Positions 674 to 18,200 of a stretch of 64,000 bases of DNA are shown here, piece after piece. The translations under genes and the position numbers were made by a program. This stretch comes from Ariolimax columbianus (taxonomy: Eukaryota > Mollusca > Gastropoda > Stylommatophora > Arionidae): NCBI GenBank assembly GCA_036924085.1, contig JAVGWX010000007.1, positions 104,725,428 through 104,789,427 on the forward strand. Direction: 5' to 3'. The notes below the pieces were generated by a model that worked only from the letters and a program-made list of their open reading frames with translations, did not search any database and was not told the DNA's origin. The stretch's first letter is position 1. The number at the start of each line of letters is the position of its first letter.

Positions 674-3600
674 CTGAGAAAGAGAGCAATCACATTTAGT
701 CAGCCAGGACTGAGTATCTGAGAAAGAGAGCAATCACATTTAGTCAGCCAGGACTGAGTATCTGAGAAAGAGAGCAATCACATTTAGTCAGCCAGGACTG
801 AGTATCTGAGAAAGAGAGCAATCACATTTAGTCAGCCAGGACTGTGGGTATCTGAGGAAGAGAGCAATCACATTTAGTCAGCTAGGACTGTGGGTATCTG
901 AGAAAAAGAGCAATCACATTTAGTCAGCCAGGACTGTGGGTATCTGAGAAAGAGAGCAATTACATTTAGTCAGCTAGGACTGTGTGACAGATCCAGCTCC
1001 TTGTGGAGCATAGGCAGATTGGGCTGGGCAGTTAGGGCAGGGCAGGATGGGCTGGCGACTGTGTTCGCTAAGAATCAAATGTTGCCTGTATTGTAGTTAA
1101 TGGGGCGTAGGTCAAACCCCAATCACTGAGCGGGACGAAGCATGAGGTGAGAATTTAAAGCAAATGGGAAAACTTGGCTAGTTTAGGGATAGGTACCAGT
1201 TTGACCAATTTTGGTATCAGAGGTACGAGAGTTCGGTTCGATTAAGCATTCAGCGAATCCTAGGGACTGCGATCCCAGTGGTACAATAGTTCACCACGAT
1301 AAGGATTCTGTGAATCCTAGGGACTGCGATTCAAAATGGTACGTGAGTGTTCGGAAAGAGAAGTGCACCACATGAGCCGTCAGAGAACGAAATTGTTCGA
1401 TACAGGTGTAACACGAGCAGCAAAGGGGCATGCCTCAAGCACTTGAGAACTGCCCATAGTTGTACGTGAAACATAACTCATTTGTTAAACTAAATTGACA
1501 CGCTTGACAGCGTAAAGCAGCAGCCCTGACAGGAACGGCAGATCATCACCAACGTAGACGACGACTTAGATAGAACCATTGATTTGTAATACTGTTGGAT
1601 TCGACTAAGTTTAGGATTTATGTTATTTCATTTGAGGCATAGAATCTGGGTTCTATGTTGACAGAAGTAACATCAATAGCACTTGCTTGGATCTTCTGTG
1701 TTAGTTTAGTTTATATATTATGATTATTTAGTTAGAAGTTCTTTTCGGTTGTTGAAATTATGTAACCATTATTCATGAAAATAAATATTGTTTTGTCTCA
1801 ATGGTTAACAATAGTTTTAGTGTATTTGTGATTGAAGTTAACGTCTTATAGTCTATGTTGTGAGTCAGCAAACTCTTCAGAAATAGTCTACTCTGATACA
1901 TATGAATATTGGTCCGCATGACCAGGACAGCTTTGATGAGGATGTGAAATAGTTAAGTGCACTGTGGGTATCAGAGAGAAAACATCCACATTTAGTCAGC
2001 TAGGACTGTGGCTACCAGAGAGGAAACATCCACATTTAGTCAGCTAGGACTGTGGCTACCAGAGAGGAAACATCCACATTTAGTCAGCTAGGACTGTGGC
2101 TACCAGAGAGGAAACATCCACATTTAGTCAGCTAGGACTGTGGCTACCAGAGAGGAAACATCCACATTTAGTCAGCTAGGACTGTGGGTATCAGAGAGAA
2201 AACATCCACATTTAGTCAGCTAGGACTGTGGCTACCAGAGAGGAAACATCCACATTTAGTCAGCTAGGACTGTGGGTATCAGATAAAAAACATCCACATT
2301 TAGTCAGCTAGGACTGTGGCTACCAGAGAGGAAACATCCACATTTAGTCAGCTAGGACTGGCTATCAGAAAGAAAACATCCACATTTAGTCCGATGACAA
2401 GATCGTGTCACTGACATCGAGGTTCTCTCGAGGGCTAACATGCCCAGCTAGAAAAAGCACGACTAGGATGGGGCGGACACCTCGTCCGTATGTCAGACGA
2501 GTGGCTCCCAAAGAAGCTTCTCTACGGCGAGCTGAGAGAGGGATGGCGAGAGAGAGGGCGCCCAAAGAAACAATTTAAAGACGGTTTGAATGACTCACTG
2601 AAAAAATGCCAGATAGACATCGACACCTGGGAATGTCTTGTGCAAAACAGATCTGACTGGAGAAGCACAGTCAAATCGGGTGTAGCTACCGGCGAAGATG
2701 ACCGTGTTGTGAAAGCCCAGAGCAGACGCGAGACCCAGAAATCCCGAACAGCGGGAACACCATCACCTTCTACAAACCTCGTGTGCCCGTTATGTAGCAG
2801 ATGTATTCGTGCCCGCATTGGTCTGTTCAGCCACATGCGCACCCACACCCAACAGGGAAATTTGTAACAAGGATGATGTCAGCGGTCCTCATCAACAACA
2901 ATGGACAGCTATTAGATTAGACTCTTTTGTGCTCCCTGAAAAGGATGTTAAGTGGCCCGTTGCAGTAGCTTTCTTCAAATCCCGAGCATGCTGATAAAGG
3001 TGGGACTAGGTCCTCCAGGTTTTTGTACAATGTTTGGCTTCATCTGCGTTCACTTACTACTATGGGGATCATGTTGATCCCTCACCTCGTTAGCCATGCT
3101 GCCATAAGAACATCCCGTTTTCAAGGATGGCTACTAGGACGCCGAGATGAGGGTCTTGGCCAATATATTTTGCCTGCCCAGATGTTAGTCATCCTCCCCA
3201 AATACACCCAAAGAAATCATCAAAGTTTCATACTGATATATATTTTCATATGAAGCAGCTATAGTAACTAGCTTCCCCGGGATATCATTTTTCCAACCCA
3301 CACATTCCTCCATCTATCTCTTTCATCTCTAAATCTGTCCTCAACCATCTCTTCCCCCAGATCGCCTACCCATTTCCCCTTCCTCACTTAATTATTGTTG
3401 GTTCAGATGAAGAAAATGTCAGCTCGATATGTTGCTCAATGCAAGTTATGGCATCTTTATATGCCCACAACTCATGAAGGGAATGACATAGCAACTTGAA
3501 ATAAATTGCTTTGATCTAGAAATGACCATAAAATGTTATGTTCAAATTTTAGCTTGTTGTGTCATTCTGTTAGTGAGTTATGGTGTATGTGCATACTTAC

Positions 3601-6600: not shown

Positions 6601-9600
6601 GGTACTGCTATGGTCAACAGAGACAAATTTAAGCTTCAGATGGGACATGGACTGTTTCTACTATAAACAGGCAACAGAGACAAATGTGATACTCTGGTTC
6701 AATGTTTGACAACACATGACCTGTCTGATGTGATACTCTGGTTCAATGTTTGACAACACATGACCTGCCTGATGTGATACTCTGGTTCAATGTTTGACAA
6801 CACATGACCTGTCTGATGTGATACTCTGGTTCAATGTTTGACAACATGTGTCCTGCCTGATGTGATACTCTGTGACAGACTATTTTCTCTACATCTCTTG
6901 TTTCTGACCTCACTGATAGCTTCTTTGTCTACCTTCAACTAAACCTCCTGGTACAATTCAAATTATGAATAATAAATGTAAGGGGCTCTCCAATCCATTG
7001 GGGAAGTCTTTTTTGTATATACTTGCAACTGAGTGTGCTAACAAGCATGTGATTGGTCTGTTGGTGTGATTGGTTGGTTTATTTGTGTGTCTGTGTGATG
7101 TGATTGGTCTGTTAATGTGTCTGTGTGATGTGATTGGTCTGTTGGTGTGTCTGTGTGATGTGATTGGTCTGTTGGTGTGTCTGGTCTGTTGGTGTGTCTG
7201 TGTGATGTGATTGGTCTGTTGGTGTGATGTGATTGGTCTGTTGGTGTGTCTGTGTGATGTGATTGGTCTGTTGGTGTGTCTGTGTGATGTGATTGGTCTG
7301 TTGGTGTGTCTGTGTGATGTGATTGGTCTGTTGGTGTGTATGTGTGATGTGATTGGTCTGTTGGTGTGTCTGTGTGATGTGATTGGTCTGTTGGTGTGTC
7401 TGTGTGATGTGATTGGTCTGTTGGTGTGTCTATGTGATGTGATTGGTCTGTTGGTGTGTCTGTGTGATGTGATTGGTCTGTTGGTGTGTCTGTGTGATGT
7501 GATTGGTCTGTCTGTGTGATGTGATTGGTCTGTTGGTGTGTCTGAGTGATGTGATTGGTCTGTTGGTGTGTCTCTGTGATATGATTGGTATGTTGGTGTG
7601 TCTGTGTGATGCTGGTGTGATTGGTATGTTGGTGTGATTGGTATCGTTAGAATGTTTCAGCTAACAGGTAGCTCCTTTCCTATATGTAACTGCCAAATGA
7701 TTCTTTGATGTGTACAGCATGTACACAGGACATCTCTGAAAGGACTAGAGGCCAATCTTACCTCCCTTGAGACTCTTGAAACCTTCAGGAGGAGAAAATT
7801 GTGAAGGATCTAATCCACATAATGAAGAGAAATAAAATGTTCACATCTCACCTGGCAAAACGAATCCGTGCTGGCATATTCTGAGGAGTATCTACTTCAT
7901 CTGGAAAATGCTCATGCTGCCTTTCCTCTTTCAGAAGCTCATAACTGGACAAATATAAATAAGAGAAATTATATTCAAAATAATATAGAATATTTGAACA
8001 TTGCATGAGGTGAGGTCATCTGGTTGAAGCCTTGCATGAGGTGAGGTCATCTGGTTGAGACCTTGCATGAAGTGAGGTCATCTGGTTGAAGCCTTGCATG
8101 AGGTGAGGTCATGTCATCTGGTTGAGACCTTGCATGAGGTGAGGTCATGTCATCTGGTTGAGACCTTGCATGAGGTGAGGTCATGCCATCTGGTAGAGGC
8201 CTTGCATGAGGTGAGGTCGTGTCATCTAATTGAGGCCTGCAGGTTACATGTTTACGGAAAGGATTCGGTGGTAACCCTGAGGCAAAATCTGCTTCCTATG
8301 CTATCTCCAGCCGTCTCGATGAATGTCTTGCCACTGGCAAAAGGTAGCTTAGGCTCTGTGAGTGAGGTTGACAAAAGGCGAAGTTTCTTCCTCACTTTAA
8401 TCCAAATCTCCGCGCAAGTCACCCATTTCAGCGGACACAGCAAGAGATACGACTGTCCACACGGCTGAACAAAGAGAGTGGTCTTCATCACTTGTGATGG
8501 ACAAAAAACTACAATATTATCAGGTTGAGGCCTTGCATGGGGTCATGTCATTCACATACATTACAAAAAGGCATATCAACTGTCAGACATTACAGCAAGG
8601 CGCAAAAAAAAACAATGACAAAATAATTCAGGAGCATGGTCATATATATTTAAAGATACAAGCCCACATTAACAGTGAGCTTGTTATCGACCCCGTGACC
8701 TCGATACAGGGAGGGGAGGGAGAGAGAACCATAAACCAGAAAGGCAAACTCAACTAATACATCTGATAAAAACAGCTGTGACAGGGTAAGATGATTACTG
8801 GCAGAAAGATGGATTCATTCAGTCAATGACAGTCACCAATCACTTTGAGTAATCTGACTTAACTTCTATTTTTAAGGATGTATCATGAGTCATCCTACTA
8901 AATGTATCATTAGTCATCCTACAAAATGTATCGTGAGTCATCCTACTAAATGTATCATGAGTCATCCTACTTAATGTATCCTTAGTCATCTTACTAAATG
9001 TATCATGAGTCATCCTACTAAATGTATCATTAGTCATTTTACTAAATGTATCCTGAGTCATCCTACTTAATGTGTCATGAGTCATCCTACTAAATGTATC
9101 ATGAGTCATCCTACTAAATGTATCATGAGTCATTCTACTAAATGTATCATTAGTCATCTTACTAAATGTATCATTAGTCATCTCACTAAACATATCATGA
9201 CTCATCCTACTAAATGTATGAGTCATCCTGCTAAACATATCATGAGTCATCTTACTAAATGTATCATGAGTCATAATGTAACAGTTCCAACCCGAGCAAG
9301 AGAGTTTTGGGCAGGGGTGATGTGGTTGCTGATAACAAAGGTACCTGAATGCGTGCCAAGGTCACTCTCTGTCTGGTCACTACGCCAAGATCACTCATCG
9401 TCTCAACAAAGGAAATCGGAGTTGGGGAAAAATGTACAGGTAGAAACTGCCCACTGGCGTTCCAACTTGAACAATGGGGTGTGAGTGACAGACTGGAGGG
9501 CAGCAATGCTTGCTGCGATAGATGAGTGACAGGTGTTCAGAGTATTCATTCCAATAACGACTGAATAGAGCCATCCTCCTGAGATCCATTGGTCAGCTCT

Positions 9601-12232
9601 GATACTGCTTGAGAGTATATAACACTACACAAAGTTTAGCTCGAGCAGGCTGGCATGGAGAGGAGATGAATGAATGCAGATAGGAGTCTGTTTAGCTCAC
9701 CGACTTAGATAGAGGAGCAATTGATAGACTGTTGTACAAATGTTGGAGATAGAACATACGCCATTGAGTTGGGGCCACTAACATCGTTGGAGGAGTTGGC
9801 GAACTCATGGCAGGTCAAAATGAACGAGGAAAAAACAAATAAACCCCAGAACACCAAAATAAGTCTTAACGGCAAATACATGCGGCCAAACGACAACCCA
9901 AACTACCTGGGAGTCCCATTTGATCGGCGTATGACATGGAAAAGTCAGATCGAGATAAACCGAATGAGAGCCAGAGAAAGAATGGCAATCATGAGGAAAC
10001 TTGCTGGCACAAGCTGGGGATAAGACGAAAGTATACTAAAGAAACTGTACACGGGAAGAGTGAGACCAGTTCTCGAGTATGGCATGGCGGCATGGACAAC
10101 AACAGCAAAGGCGAACTTCGATAAAATTAGCAAACTCCAAAACCAAGCCATGAGAGTTATAACGAGGCATGAAGTCAACGCCAATTGTAGAACTTGAAAA
10201 GATTACAAATCTGCAATCCATGACCGACAGAAGAGACTGCAGAGCCTAGCAGCAAGCTTAGAAACTCAGAAGACTGACAGACCATCCAATGCATCAGAGA
10301 CTAAATAGATTTGGAAATGGCAAACTAAAGCGGAGAAACTTTGCAGAAATAGCCATAGCAAAGATGAGCGAAGACCCTATGAACACCGTAACAACACCAA
10401 AGCCCATCCCTACTGTACGCAAACCCACCTGGAAGCAGTATAACATTCCGGAGGTGGTAGAAAATATACCAGGTATTGGAAACAAGAACATCTGGGGCTG
10501 GTCTCTCGGTGGCACGATTGACTCGCATCCAGTGTACGTACAGCGATCTCAGTTCCGCCAGGCGGAGTGAAAGCGCGAGCCCGTTTCACACGCTCGACCG
10601 CCTTTCCCCGGCACTGTAGCGGGACCATTTTGGTGGAGTCGTACCGCTGGAAATGGTGCGTTACTGTGGTCCGTATCAAGAAACTTTGTCAGTCCGTGTG
10701 TATTTCGACGAAGGCGTATAGCCAATCTCGACAGTTCGTCTCGCTGGTGGTCATTCTCTCGCAAAGAGCTTGTGACCGGCAAATGGAAAGCAGGAATCGT
10801 GCCTAAAGGCCCTGTCCTCGCCCGACCAACTGGTCGGAGAAGGGAGGCCGGCAAGCAAAAATCATCGCCGGGGCCGTTGGGATCCGTTCTGCACAGAGCG
10901 CTGCCATCCCTCCCCGAGCGAGCCCAGTCGGTTGGTGTGTGTACGGGCCCCTGCCAGGCGGTCCTAGGTCGACGGAGTGAGGGACGGAACAATCCTCTGT
11001 CCCTGCGGCCGTCCTGGTGAGGCTTTTTACACATCTATCGCCGACCGGTGTGTGTGGTTAGCCCATCTCTGACAGATATCTGGTTGATCCTGCCAGTAGT
11101 CATATGCTTGTCTCAAAGGTTAAGCCATGCATGTCTAAGTTCACACTGTCTCACGGTGAAACCGCGAATGGCTCATTAAATCAGTCGAGGTTCCTTAGAT
11201 GACACGATCCTAATTGGATAACTGTGGCAATTCTAGAGCTAATACATGCTTACCAAGCTCCGACCCTAGCGGAAAGAGCGCTTTTATTAGTTCAAAACTA
11301 ATCGTCGTTTCCCCTCGCGGGGTTGCGGCGTCCCCATTGGTGACTCTGGATAACTTTGTGCTGATCGCATGGCCTCATGTGCCGGCAACACATCTTTCAA
11401 ATGTCTGCCCTATCAAATATCAATGGTACGTGACATGCCTACTATGTTTGTAACGGGGAATCAGGGTTTGATTCCGGAGAGGGAGCATGAGAAACGGCTA
11501 CCACATCCAAGGAAGGCAGCAGGCGCGCAACTTACCCACTCCCGGCACGGGGAGGTGGTGACGAAAAATTACAATACGGGACTCTTTCGAGGCCCCGTAA
11601 TTGGAATGAGTACACTTTAAACCCTTTAACGGGAATCTATTGGAGGGCAAGTCTGGTGCCAGCAGCCGCGGTAATTCCAGCTCCAATAGCGTATATTAAA
11701 GTTGTTGCAGTTAAAAATCTCGTAGTTGGATCTCAGGCGCAGGCGGGCGGTACGGCTCGCGCCGGTTCACTGCCTGTTGTCTCCTGCCCTACCGTCTGCC
11801 GGCTCTCCCGCAAGTGCTCTTCGCTGAGCGTCCCGGGTGGCCGGTGCGTTTACTTTTAAAAAATTTGAGTGTTCAAAGCAGGCCTCGGCTGCCTGAATAA
11901 TGGTGCATGGAATAATGGAATAGGACCTCGGTTCTATTTTATTGGTTTTCGGAACTGGAGGTAATAATTAACAGGGACAAACGGGGGCATTCGTATTGCG
12001 GCGTTAGAGGTGAAATTCTAGGATCGCCGCAAGACGAGCTATTGCAAAAGCATTTGTCAAGAATGTTTTCATTAATCAAGAACGAAAGTCAGAGGCGTGA
12101 AGACGATCAGATACCGTCGTAGTTCTGACCATACACGATGCCGACTAGCGATCCGCAGGAATTTTCTTCGATTATGCGGGCAGCTTCCGGGAAACCAAAG
12201 TGTTTGAGTTCCGGGGGAAGTATGGTTGCAAA

Positions 12233-12281
<49 letters not shown>

Positions 12282-15200
12282 GCGGCTTAATTTGACTCGC
12301 CAACACTGTAAAATGACTAAGAGCTCTTTCGTTGGGTCTAATAAGGAACGTGCGCTGAAATTAGACCCACGGAAGACAGGTCAGTCCTACCCTCTTAATG
12401 AAAAAGAGTTGCCACGGTAATCCTGCTTAACCCTAGAGGAATCGCAGGTTTCAGACACTTGGTCATTGACTGAATAAAAAGCCCTCTATTTGATTCGTTG
12501 GGTCTAATAGTGAACGGGTGCTGGTATTAGACCCTCGGAAGACAGGTCAGTTTTACCCTACAAATGACAGGGCGTTGCTACGGTAATCCTGCTCAATTCG
12601 AGAGGAGTCGCAGACATTTGGTCCACGTGCTAGGCATGCCAATAGTGCGAGGCTACCATCTGAGGGATTACGGTCGAACGCCTCTAAGCCGGAATCTCAC
12701 CCAAAATCTCAAAACCACTGCGATGGGAGGCTACGATATGGTTGGGACCTGGGGCTCCCGAATCAGACCGACGCGGTCAAACCGCAGAAAGAGGTATTTG
12801 GCGTCCGCTGATCAAAGCGGGCGGGAAGCTGCTCGATATTCACCCCATACGGCGATGAGGTGTGAAACCACTAGTAGAAGACTTAGTTCTCGGTCGGGGT
12901 GTCGTAAGCAGTAGAGCAGCAACCTCACTGCGAACTGTTGAGACTCAACCCTTGATCATGAGATATGTCCGCACACCAAGCGAACAACATCTCCGTGCCA
13001 TGGCCAGACTTGTCCCCTGGTTAAAGGCACTCCTGCCTCGCACTCTACCTCTGTCTGCTATCAGTCATCCCAATGGACGCAGAAAAGATGCAGTCCAGTG
13101 GACATTGCACCTCTGCCCTATTGTGACAACCTCCCAGGTGGCGGGGAATGCTAGGCGTGCCATCACTGCAGATGAGCCGAGAAAATAAAGGGAGCAAAGA
13201 GATACCTCACTCACATGCATATGCTACGTTTCTGGCAGGACGTGACGATCCTGGGACACAGACACACTGGACTGCCTCTCTTTCAGGATAGTACAAACTA
13301 GTACATAGTCCATCATATCATATCATTGCCACACCCTATAGACACGAGTAGGGAAGACTCGATAGTCCTGCAAGACAACTTCCCTAAGTGAGACAACTCT
13401 GACCAAAAACAACTGCTGCCTTGCAGATAGGCTGGGGACAGCCAAAGGTTAAGGAGGGCATCTCTACAGAAACACCTGTTGAAATCGGATGCACTGGGCC
13501 ACAGGCTTAACGAAACAGTGCAACGTATATTGCTGAATGATGACGGTACAACCTATCAGAAAAAAATAAAGGTTGACGTCTGACAGCGTACGAAGAAGAA
13601 GAAGAAGGAAACAAGAACAGCCAGACTGAAAAAGAAAGAAGAGACATAACCCTGAGGTACATAATGGAAAACTACACGAGCATGGAATGGACCCATGCAT
13701 ACACCGACGGTTCTGTAACAAACACAATACAGAACAGAGGGGCAGATGTATTCCTGAGCCTACCAAATGGTAGAAAAATAACACTGTCAGTGGCAACTGG
13801 AAAAATCTCAAGCAATTTCAGAGCAGAGGCACTGAGGGCTGTGGTAGAAGCAATGATGACAGGCGAAAGCAATGAAAGCCAGATAGTCCTGTTTACAGAT
13901 GCCCTGGCCGTAGTCACAGCACTAAAAAGCCAGAAAAATACTGAACTTAATGATTTAAGAGCAGTACTCGGTCAACTATGCTAGCAGTCCGCACCAAAAA
14001 GGGAGTAGTTGTACAGTGGGTTCCATGGCACTGTTACATCCAAGGCAACGAGGAAGCAGACAGACTGGCAAAAGAAGGTGCAAGACTACCACAACCAGAT
14101 TCTAGTGTGGCCTACAAAGAGTCCAAAAGGCTTATTAGGGCCAGATACATGGCCAAATGGGAAACAGAACATACTGGCTACACAAAAAACGGTGCCTATT
14201 ACCAGTTGAACAGAAGAGAGCAGGTCGTGGTCTTCAGACTCCGCACAGGCCACAACAGACTGAGGTACCACCTATTCAATAAACTGAAGATAGGTGCCAC
14301 TGACGAACGCACCTGTGGTACAGGGAAAATGACCGCTGAACATCTGTCCAACATACGAGGACCAGAGAAAGCACATGTGGCCATCACCAGTGGCAACACT
14401 AGACAAGCTCTATGGCAGTGTCGACAGCCCATGGATGACCGCTGCTTTCTTCAAAAAAATACAGGTTGACGTTTGACAGCATACGAAGAAGAGTCAGGAC
14501 CAGCTGCTCAAATAGGTGTGTGTGGGAGTTTTGTATTAATAGATAATCTGAACGTATGTTGTACACAGGACACCTTGTGAACGAGTATGTCCTGACGAGT
14601 TAAGCGAGTGTGGAGATCAACTAGGTGAGATCTAGATAGGTGTGTGATGTGTGTACGGCAATAGAACTGGGTTTTGGTAGTTGGGAATAACATCAATAGC
14701 TAATACTTAAAATTTCCACTTTAGTTTAATATTTATATTAACATATATATAATATATGAATATTTAGTTAAGATGATATGTATTGTATTGTGTTTCTAAT
14801 TTCACTACTCATATTCCTGGTATGAGTATTATATAATAAATATGCCACCTGCTGTGTGCTATATTATTTGCAGTGTGTGATAATGTTCTAAGTTAGAATA
14901 ACCCTAGGGCAAACAGTGGGATCTGCTACAATCCTACTAAATGTATCATGAGTCATCCTACTAAATGTATCATGAGTCATCTCACTATAAATATCATGAG
15001 TCATCCTACTAAATATATCATGAGTCATCCTATTAAATATATCATGAGTCATCTTACTAAACATCATGAGTCATCCTACTAAATGTATCATGAGTCATCT
15101 TACTAAACATATCATGAGTCATCTTACTAAACATATCATGAGTCATCTTACTAAACATATCATGAGTCATCCTACTAAATGTATCATGTCATCTCACTAA

Positions 15201-18200
15201 ACATATCACGAGTCATCTCACTAAACATATCATTAGTCATCCTACTAAATGTATCATGAGTCATCTTACTAAACATGAGTCATCCTACTAAATGTATCAT
15301 GTCATCTCACTAAACATATCACGAGTCATCTCACTAAACATATCATTAGTCATCCTACATAAACGTATCGTAAAGCTTGGAACATAACATTCAATTTAAA
15401 ATGTACATCTACGCCAACATTTGTTATATAATTATCTTTCAACACACAACTGAAAATCCACAAAACATGAATGCACATTTATAAAAATTTAAAAAATTTT
15501 TTTTTTTAAAAGGACACATTCCCCTATGATAAATGAAGATATGTCTGCGGCTCTTAATGCACTATCAATTAATGCAAGTACTGTATGTTGTGCGTATCAA
15601 CTATGGACCTCATGAAATTAACTAAGACAAAAATATATCTGTGCAGTCTACATAACATTTAACATCTCAATGAAAACAGGAGCATGCATTCAAGTGATAA
15701 GTTCATGTCAGATAATGGACACATTCCAACGGCACGTATGTATCAACAAATTATTGTACAACATTACAGTAGAACATGCCTGCCAGCCAACCAGGCAGCC
15801 AGCCAGCCAACCAACAAACCAGACGACACAGCTGAACAACTTAACAAAGGATTTACTTACATCTTTTTTTCTTCATTCATATCCATCTGGTCATCATAAT
15901 TGTCATGCTCATCCAGGTCACTTGTCTGGAAACAACATGATATACTATAGGGAAGTCATCAATTATTATGATATACTATAGCCAGGTCATCAATTATCAT
16001 GATATACTATAGGGAGGTCATCAATTATCATGATATACTACAGGGCAGTCATCAATTATCATGATATACTACAGGGAGGTCATCAATTATCATGATATAC
16101 TACAGGGCAGTCATCAATTATCATGATATACTATAGGGCAGTCATCAATTATCATGATATACTACAGGGAGGTCATCAATTATCATGATATACTACAGGG
16201 CAGTCATCAATTATCATGATATACTACAGGGCAGTCATCAATTATCATGATATACTACAGGGCAGTCATCAATTATCATGATATACTACAGGGCAGTCAT
16301 CAATTAACGTAATATTCTACAGGGAGGTCATCAATTATCATATTCTACAAGGAAGTCATCAATTATCATGATATTCTACAGGGCAGTCATCAATTATCAT
16401 GATATTCTACAAGGAAGTCATCAATTATCATAATATTCTACAGGGCAGTCATCAATTATCATGATAGTCTACAAGGAAGTCATCAATTATCATGATATAC
16501 TACAGGGAAGTCATCAATTATCATGATATACTTCAGGGAAGTCATCAATTAACATAATATTCTACAAGGAAGTCATCAATTATCATGATATACTACAGGG
16601 AAGTCATCAATTATCTTGTGTAGCAGATCTAGGATTTTCCTTCAGACTGCGGGTTAAGAGTTACAAAAACATCTAACACTTGGCGTCAAAACTTCAACAT
16701 AGCAAACACTAAAACCTGCGTTAACCATAAAACAAGATATTTATTACAAAAAGAATGTTACAACATGCTAAATAAACTAAACTAACTAAACATCAATGCA
16801 TCTTTCTAACCATGGAATGTTAGGAGGGGCTAAATGGAATCCTTGGAACTATCAAACCCAGTTCTGAAGTCTATCCTAATATAAAATGGAATCCCTGGAA
16901 CTATCAAACCCAGTTCTGAAGTCTATCCTAATATAAAATGGAATCCCTGGAACTATCAAACCCAGTTCTGAAGTCTATCCTAATATAAAATGGAATCCCT
17001 GGAACTATCAAACCCAGTTCTGAAGTCTATCCTAATATAAAATGGAATCCCTGGAACTATCAAACCCAGTTCTGAAGTATATCCTAATATAAAATGGAAT
17101 CCCTGGAACTATCAAACCCAGTTCTGAAGTCTATCCTAATATAAAATGGAATCCCTGGAACTATCAAACCCAGTTCTGAAGTCTATCCTAATATAAAATG
17201 GAATCCCTGGAACTATCAAACCCAGTTCTGAAGTCTATCCTAATATATATAAAACAAATCTTGTTCTATGCTGCTTAACTACTATCTTGTACAACAAATC
17301 CTGTGTGCCCCTTTGGTAGTTGTTTCTGATGTTGATCTCTGGCGGTCGTCGGTTCTGCGCTATGCAATGATAGCTTTCTTGCTACATTCATGTGTGTGCT
17401 CTTTGAGGCATACGATCAGTTGGATCTCTACCTCAACAGCCCGTCAAGAACTGTTGTCTACTGAAATGCCGCTGAGTATATAACTACAGTTTATCTCTCA
17501 CCCTCAACAGATCATCAGTGCTGACGACTGTGAAGGTTACAGATACGTTCTCCCAATTCTCATATTGCCTACAGGGAGTCCATCATTCGCACCTGTGAGC
17601 AAAAGTGCAATGAGGTGTATGATGTGATAACACCCATAAGCTATATCTCTCCAATCTATCCTCTGCCCACAATTTTCTAATTTATAGACCCCTAAAAACA
17701 AAGATGGCGGTGGTACTAGATACACTGTTCCTTCTGCTGACTGGTCAGCTGTCAATCTCATCTTGGCTACTCCCATCTTGAAATCCTATTGACTCATCTC
17801 TACCTGTCATTCTAAATGTGCCAGCCTGGTGAACCATTTCTAGTCTCTCAAATAACGAAGAGAAGTTTATAGGCCCTATCACACACCCCCCCCCCCCCCA
17901 ATTCTAAATCAATTTGACAATGCTGTTGTGTTGTCCCTAAATTTGCCAATGACCTCCTCAGTCAATTTTTTGCTCCATAAAAGAAACTTGTTTCTAGCCC
18001 TGATGTTTTTCCTGTTACCTACTACTCCCTGATACATAACATGCTTACACTTGATTGACAGAGCAAATCAAAATCCTGCGGTATTGTAAAAATGAGAATG
18101 TATTAAATGGTGCTACAATGTCAGCTGTATCATATTTTTTAAAGAATGGTCCGGAATCGTATCGCCCACTCGATAGACAAGAAGATTATCAAGGAACAAG

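Follow-up and report, generated by a model that had tools for sequence, protein, structure and literature searches.

An rRNA-headed insertion inside a LINE

How does the beginning of a ribosomal RNA (rRNA) precursor come to stand inside a long interspersed nuclear element (LINE), and is such an arrangement a single accident or a class of element? This question is raised by a 3.1-kb block at positions 10491-13606 of the window, the term we use for the whole 64,000-nucleotide stretch of the Ariolimax columbianus genome that was analysed (contig JAVGWX010000007.1, positions 104,725,428 to 104,789,427, forward strand). A sequence-only reading had described the block as an rRNA-headed retroelement with a core of the type known from short interspersed nuclear elements (SINEs), and had proposed either a family or a one-off template-switch product. 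We find that the block is almost certainly a non-autonomous, internally deleted copy, resembling a short internally deleted element (SIDE), of a LINE family that carries an rRNA head, and that the LINE it is inserted in is of this family too.

The block is a real, clean insertion. Perfect 13-bp direct repeats (GGAAACAAGAACA) flank it on both sides, and its joined flanks align, gap-free at the join, to an uninterrupted copy of the LINE it landed in (1445/1579 aligned bases), which bears out the precise insertion into an RNase H LINE proposed earlier. The final A of the left repeat may be the element's own first base instead, because A precedes TCTGGGG, as in the ribosomal DNA (rDNA), in all 14 loci chosen for having the head start. 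The parts are listed here; L001-L054 denote loci read in this genome and C-numbers its contigs.

9773..10490, +, host LINE fragment, reverse transcriptase (RT) region, left of the insertion (654/714 to the C21 LINE)
10478..10490, +, target-site duplication, left copy, GGAAACAAGAACA (direct reading; the last A may be the element's first base)
10491..11079, +, pre-rRNA 5' external transcribed spacer (ETS), from the presumed RNA polymerase I (Pol I) start (colinear alignment to the genome's rDNA)
11080..12313, +, 18S rRNA, 5' two thirds (Rfam RF01960, 852.9 bits; alignment to rDNA)
12331..12968, +, diverged 28S 3' end with an internal 120-nt duplication (Rfam RF02543; repeat search)
12969..13536, +, LINE leader upstream of the LINE open reading frame (ORF), into which it runs on in other copies
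13537..13569, +, remnant of the LINE ORF start, ten codons and then a stop (translation)
13560..13606, +, LINE 3' end with a (GAA)n tail; an internal deletion at an A-run fuses it to the ORF start (93% identical to 14453-14492)
13607..13619, +, target-site duplication, right copy, GGAAACAAGAACA (direct reading)
13620..14492, +, host LINE fragment, RNase H region and 3' end, right of the insertion (795/864 to the C21 LINE; RNase_H)

The ribosomal parts proposed by the sequence-only reading were recovered by alignment. The presumed ETS (10491-11079) is colinear with the stretch upstream of 18S in the rDNA units of this genome. The 18S match covers positions 4-1116 of 1831 of the Rfam small-subunit model at 11080-12213, and alignment to the genome's own rDNA extends it to about 12313; some 20 nt of 18S are absent close to 12299, and weak 18S similarity persists to about 12330. 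The 28S part matches positions 3005-3399 of 3401 of the large-subunit model at 12569-12966, reaching the model's last positions, and contains the expected duplication (12328-12447 and 12494-12613, 82% identical). The combination of ETS, 18S and 28S on one non-autonomous element is therefore borne out by the rDNA and Rfam alignments.

The 3' part had been understood differently. The supposed SINE-type core (about 12969-13536) is actually the LINE's own leader, as 306 of 324 bases at 13242-13565 match a LINE copy on C21. The LINE tail was correctly recognised, 13560-13599 being 93% identical to the host LINE 3' end at 14453-14492. A SINE made of a core and a borrowed tail is thus set aside: the 5' and 3' ends go back to a single LINE family, and the coding C21 copy bears the same kind of head. 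No HDV-like (hepatitis delta virus) ribozyme was found near the junction up to E = 5 in 12200-13606, and no tRNA, 5S or 7SL match reached the Rfam gathering threshold within the window.

The block belongs to a family of LINE copies

The genome (2.29 Gb in 401 contigs) was searched for the junctions, a check the sequence-only reading had suggested. Of three junction patterns, one matched 3988 places with as many as 3 mismatches allowed, and the other two, at no more than 1 mismatch, matched 1501 and 5259. These sets overlap and are not to be summed; reversed controls gave 0. Many copies share the same junctions with different flanks, which makes this a family. Where both flanks were read they are unrelated, and the window copy lies inside a LINE, so these copies show no fixed rDNA insertion site. 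Thousands of places with the same junctions exclude a one-off template-switch product. Moreover, the junction matches lie on many contigs, and 10-14-bp direct repeats were found at four of eight distinct copies with a paired head start and tail (the window copy, L033, L039 and L044), so that the probability of a single chimera or an assembly artefact is practically nil. At L016, L017, L018 and L047 the flanking direct repeats measure just 4-6 bp, perhaps from mispaired ends.

With the block as query, 77 matches were obtained from 40 scored candidates, and three further places align at 90-91% from query position 1 as far as 3075-3078 of 3116. With its 647-nt 3' part, 40 places were scored: in 8 the match runs through the LINE tail to the end, and the others stop at 604-609, where several of the copies read continue towards the LINE ORF. 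Copies on C12, C8 and C21 were followed downstream and continue beyond the deletion point of the window copy; those on C12 and C8 match the C21 copy for ~1.3 kb and then diverge from it. Read end to end, the C21 copy has a ribosomal head, Pfam matches to Exo_endo_phos (slightly below cut-off), RVT_1 and RNase_H, and then the shared 3' end, that is, endonuclease, RT and RNase H domains, with no first ORF noticed. Its head has an 18S deletion of its own, its reading frame is broken, and its ends have GATATCATC in common (by eye). At L052, a 548-codon ORF runs from ATG through the endonuclease and into the RT, where a stop ends it.

The window-type deletion is also present in L001, L010, L013, L016 and L018, with small A-run differences. 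A second deletion type was observed in L005, L017, L033, L037, L039, L044 and L047, and a third in L042. The block thus has what characterises a SIDE: leader and ORF start of the C21 LINE, a common 3' end, a deleted coding part and the same deletion in several copies. A SINE would have a Pol III (RNA polymerase III) head from a small RNA; here the head is ETS, 18S and 28S.

Among the relatives of the LINE protein, 20 of 120 listed were named, 19 of them from gastropods (Littorina, Elysia, Gigantopelta, Pomacea, Babylonia) and one from an arachnid (P0086), a spread that by itself points to a gastropod host; the LINE is possibly Ingi-like. On contig C3 (G000, 91099836-91311618, minus strand), the outer-junction pattern repeats at mostly 13.3-13.8 kb, with one gap of ~22 kb among the matches listed; this recurrence is a tandem array with a large unit containing the element.

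Heads begin at one position of the rDNA

The dispersed heads begin where the genome's rDNA reads ATCTGGGG and are colinear with its ETS and 18S. From its position, this site is presumed to be the Pol I start. The rDNA just upstream reads CCCCGGAATGTATATT, a 24-mer with 125 matches at no more than 2 mismatches; of those listed, two lie elsewhere and all the others on small contigs, many spaced roughly 12 kb. Because they begin at the rDNA start site, the dispersed heads that were read lack the upstream promoter, and a genome search for the promoter joined to the A-type ETS (up to 3 mismatches) gave 0 matches. Body types A (the window copy and most copies read) and C (L035, L036, L048 and L052) are subfamilies. 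The start position hints that Pol I may drive the element, as the sequence-only reading had considered.

For the present-type start, a 35-mer allowed up to 2 mismatches matches 4085 places, rDNA units among them. Of the first 21 on C1, 11 are followed on their own strand, as judged by eye, by a listed C-type junction at a distance of 1854-1867 bases; the remaining 10 have none among the matches listed, which are exact matches only.

Many copies carry nested heads, in which a full head is followed by a 48-nt start relic, a 72-nt 18S relic and then 28S; L035, L036, L048 and L052 have one additional 18S relic. In the fresh-headed copies L034, L035, L036, L039 and L048, the main part of the outer head is 96-99% identical to rDNA versus 84-93% for the inner relics. 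In the window copy, the full 18S directly abuts the inner-type junction, the arrangement expected from either a homologous switch or a deletion.

Heads are fresher than bodies

We compared how far head and body have diverged. The body consensuses of A (12 copies) and C (4 copies), from which L039 and L044 were excluded, are 85.4% identical and 14.6% different over 915 sites. The 18S consensus, in contrast, matches present rDNA at 1221/1223 positions for nine A copies (L032 and L044 left out) and at 1223/1223 for five C-headed copies (L034, L035, L036, L039 and L048). For the ETS consensus, the values are 481/584 (A) and 590/600 (C). In 231-nt bins, L036 and L048 are 97-100% and L034, L035 and L039 92.6-100% identical to rDNA, and the ETS of L036, L048 and L039 reaches 97.6-98.7%. 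In L039 the body is A-like (identity of 88-92% to L044 and the A copies, 80-82% to C), and the ETS matches rDNA at 97.6%. A neutral head inherited with the body would not be expected to yield such 18S and ETS freshness beside diverged bodies, and the head has very likely been renewed from rRNA or rDNA.

Two other ways of keeping a head fresh were considered. If the head had been inherited with the LINE and held identical in 18S by selection, e.g., because its RNA must mimic rRNA, 18S identity would persist over long times, as it does. However, the ETS of L036, L048 and L039 likewise agrees with present rDNA although free of this constraint, and identity spans practically the whole 18S stretch, variable parts included; we therefore regard selection as highly improbable. 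Gene conversion at the DNA level between dispersed copies and rDNA would likewise produce 18S identity, but it leaves unexplained that heads end at the start base without intergenic spacer (IGS) and that fusions within internal transcribed spacer 1 (ITS1), described below, have scattered junctions; its probability appears, if anything, smaller still.

Judging by the ITS1 of the fusions described below, spacer sequence within the rDNA seems to change faster than inserted copies decay, and A heads would therefore be snapshots of an earlier ETS. Alternatively, the A-type ETS possibly represents an rDNA type that has since been lost.

Further fusions and a proposed route by template switching

An 18S 3'-end pattern was found at 29 places, of which 21 lie on contigs of chromosome size and 8 on small ones. 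Ten of the 21 chromosomal loci were read, a sample biased to fusions that retain the 18S end, and all ten pass from pre-rRNA into the element, entering its body in the 28S relic, the leader or the ORF; at L021, L025, L027 and L052 (a longer cut of L020) the LINE leader or ORF is reached within the stretch read. On the rRNA side, seven fusions exit in ITS1, 114 to about 293 nt beyond 18S, and L020/L052, L022 and L024 exit further on. On the element side, the joins of all but L019, L026 and L028 are scattered. Identities to rDNA, gaps uncounted, are for 18S/ITS1 98.9/97.2% (L019), 94.8/90.9% (L021), 99.7/97.7% (L022), 99.2/99.2% (L023), 96.1/92.3% (L024), 98.7/93.6% (L025), 98.9/92.7% (L026), 98.9/99.2% (L027), 99.0/99.0% (L028) and 99.8/98.8% (L052). 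ITS1 is the more diverged in 7 of the 10 ITS1-holding fusions, markedly in L021, L024, L025 and L026.

We infer that the head is exchanged recurrently with host rRNA, most likely when the reverse transcriptase switches template. In target-primed reverse transcription, the enzyme would pass from the LINE RNA to (pre-)rRNA. Within the shared 18S, the switch would be homologous and would renew the head as far as the pre-rRNA 5' end; outside it, the switch would arrive in ITS1 or 28S. The window copy would have been mobilised in trans by an intact LINE via the common 3' end. For the renewal step itself, we lean slightly towards RNA template switching; the explanation as a whole, a deleted LINE copy with a 5' untranslated region (UTR) built from host pre-rRNA and a head exchanged by template switching, appears fairly probable from the sequences compared.

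In the main rival explanation, the source of the heads would be LINE copies resident in transcribed rDNA units, co-transcribed by Pol I from +1, whose read-through RNA is copied elsewhere, with concerted evolution keeping the head fresh. The start of the heads at the rDNA start base in 14/14 picked copies and the order of the parts, which is that of the rDNA, both suit such a source, as do L053 and L054 (see below) and the promoter spacing on rDNA contigs, which includes extra stretches of several kb: 29.3 kb from C50:91810 to 121070 and 18.6 kb from C67:80485 to 99039, the usual spacing being 12.1-12.3 kb. Some rDNA units on C50 and C67 may thus hold insertions. One resident source should, however, give a fixed junction, whereas the fusions vary in both their rRNA-side and their LINE-side junctions, and this spread is our main reason for preferring RNA template switching. 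Furthermore, no element match beyond 18S was found around 12 further promoters and L029-L031, a weak test since the units are partly N. Overall, we consider a resident source rather unlikely.

Several observations nevertheless weigh against recurrent template switching. L019, L026 and L028 join at nearly one element position close to the 18S junction of the family, a coincidence not expected of independent random jumps. At L053 (C10, about 58.99 Mb), an exact promoter, ETS and 18S are joined to the LINE ORF, and at L054 (C12, about 62.84 Mb) a LINE in antisense adjoins IGS and an exact promoter; both are chromosomal rDNA fragments and exceptions to dispersed heads without promoter. The order ETS-18S-28S-LINE is the one that read-through of rDNA would produce. 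Copies of subfamily A share more 18S changes than a null matched for composition and CpG gives (34 vs 22.7 +- 3.7; 4/500 shuffles as high), and the same holds for the body (38 vs 20.5 +- 3.5; 0/500) and the ETS (38 vs 25.2 +- 4.0; 2/500). Renewal of the head at every insertion is thus unsupported within this subfamily, the star test being weak, and the freshness claim therefore rests on the comparison of A with C. Finally, the inner 18S relic (61-77 nt) of the other (A) copies is about as near to rDNA as their outer 18S, so that an outer head younger than the inner one is clear only in the fresh-headed copies.

The joins of L019, L026 and L028 also suggested a LINE RNA starting at the 18S junction. 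This was ruled out, as 18S continues upstream in 85 of the 88 exact junction places on C1 that were compared.

Going further with template switching, we propose tentatively, and at somewhat less than an even chance, that the autonomous LINE rebuilds its 5' UTR from pre-rRNA in each wave or even each cycle, by homologous 18S switching out to the Pol I start. If so, the LINE would always carry the current ribosomal 5' end and would leave dated fossils of past ETS and ITS1 genome-wide.

Relation to known elements

The R2 SIDEs of Drosophila (PMC3414825) and the Persaeus/Zenon CR1 SIDEs (PMC6740152) likewise keep both LINE ends, lack the coding part and are mobilised by an intact partner. Here, in contrast, the 5' end is host pre-rRNA in the order ETS-18S-28S, and the intact partner is headed too. 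The 28S-headed SINEs, e.g., MeloSINE of the budgerigar (PMC4844689, PMC7245038), also join a head from the 28S 3' part to a LINE 3' end; there only a SINE carries the head, whereas here ETS and 18S precede 28S and a coding LINE bears the head.

Chimeras of LINE-1 with 28S rRNA and other RNAs (PMC13174262) similarly have an rRNA fragment on the LINE 5' side, mostly in sense, for which RNA ligation or template switching was proposed. These are 18 single 28S insertions, whereas the present copies form an amplified family with a head that we infer to be renewed. R2 and other R-elements (PMC3774820) share with this family a LINE RNA starting with rRNA sequence; unlike R2, which has one 28S insertion site, the copies read here lie outside rDNA. 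Ingi LINEs are abundant in Elysia marginata (PMC11203168), a gastropod that holds named relatives of the present LINE protein. The excerpts of that report mention no ribosomal head for gastropod Ingi elements, and the Ingi assignment made here is tentative. No LINE family with an ETS-18S head was found in the excerpts of open-access literature searched, Repbase being outside that scope, so its absence is unproven.

Template jumps from a LINE to another RNA are described in the papers cited as single insertions; jumps onto U12 snRNA and tRNA are reported for R2 (PMC3414825). Here, template jumping has apparently become recurrent in a family of thousands of copies, in which a coding relative also has the captured RNA. 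The copies would provide a dated record of rDNA spacer evolution, which concerted evolution normally erases, and the family opens to direct test the question of where nascent rRNA and LINE reverse transcription come together.

The host LINE and its surroundings

The host LINE shows a Pfam RNase_H match above cut-off at 13577-13984 and another slightly below cut-off at 13954-14469. Closely alike 24-bp repeat units (ATGTATCATGAGTCATCCTACTAA type) lie on either side of it, at 8878-9274 and 14931-15369, and because of this similarity the host LINE may have inserted into a formerly longer array. The whole window (1-64000) is rich in tandem repeats with units of ~20-120 bp, giving 93 Tandem Repeats Finder rows, overlapping rows counted.

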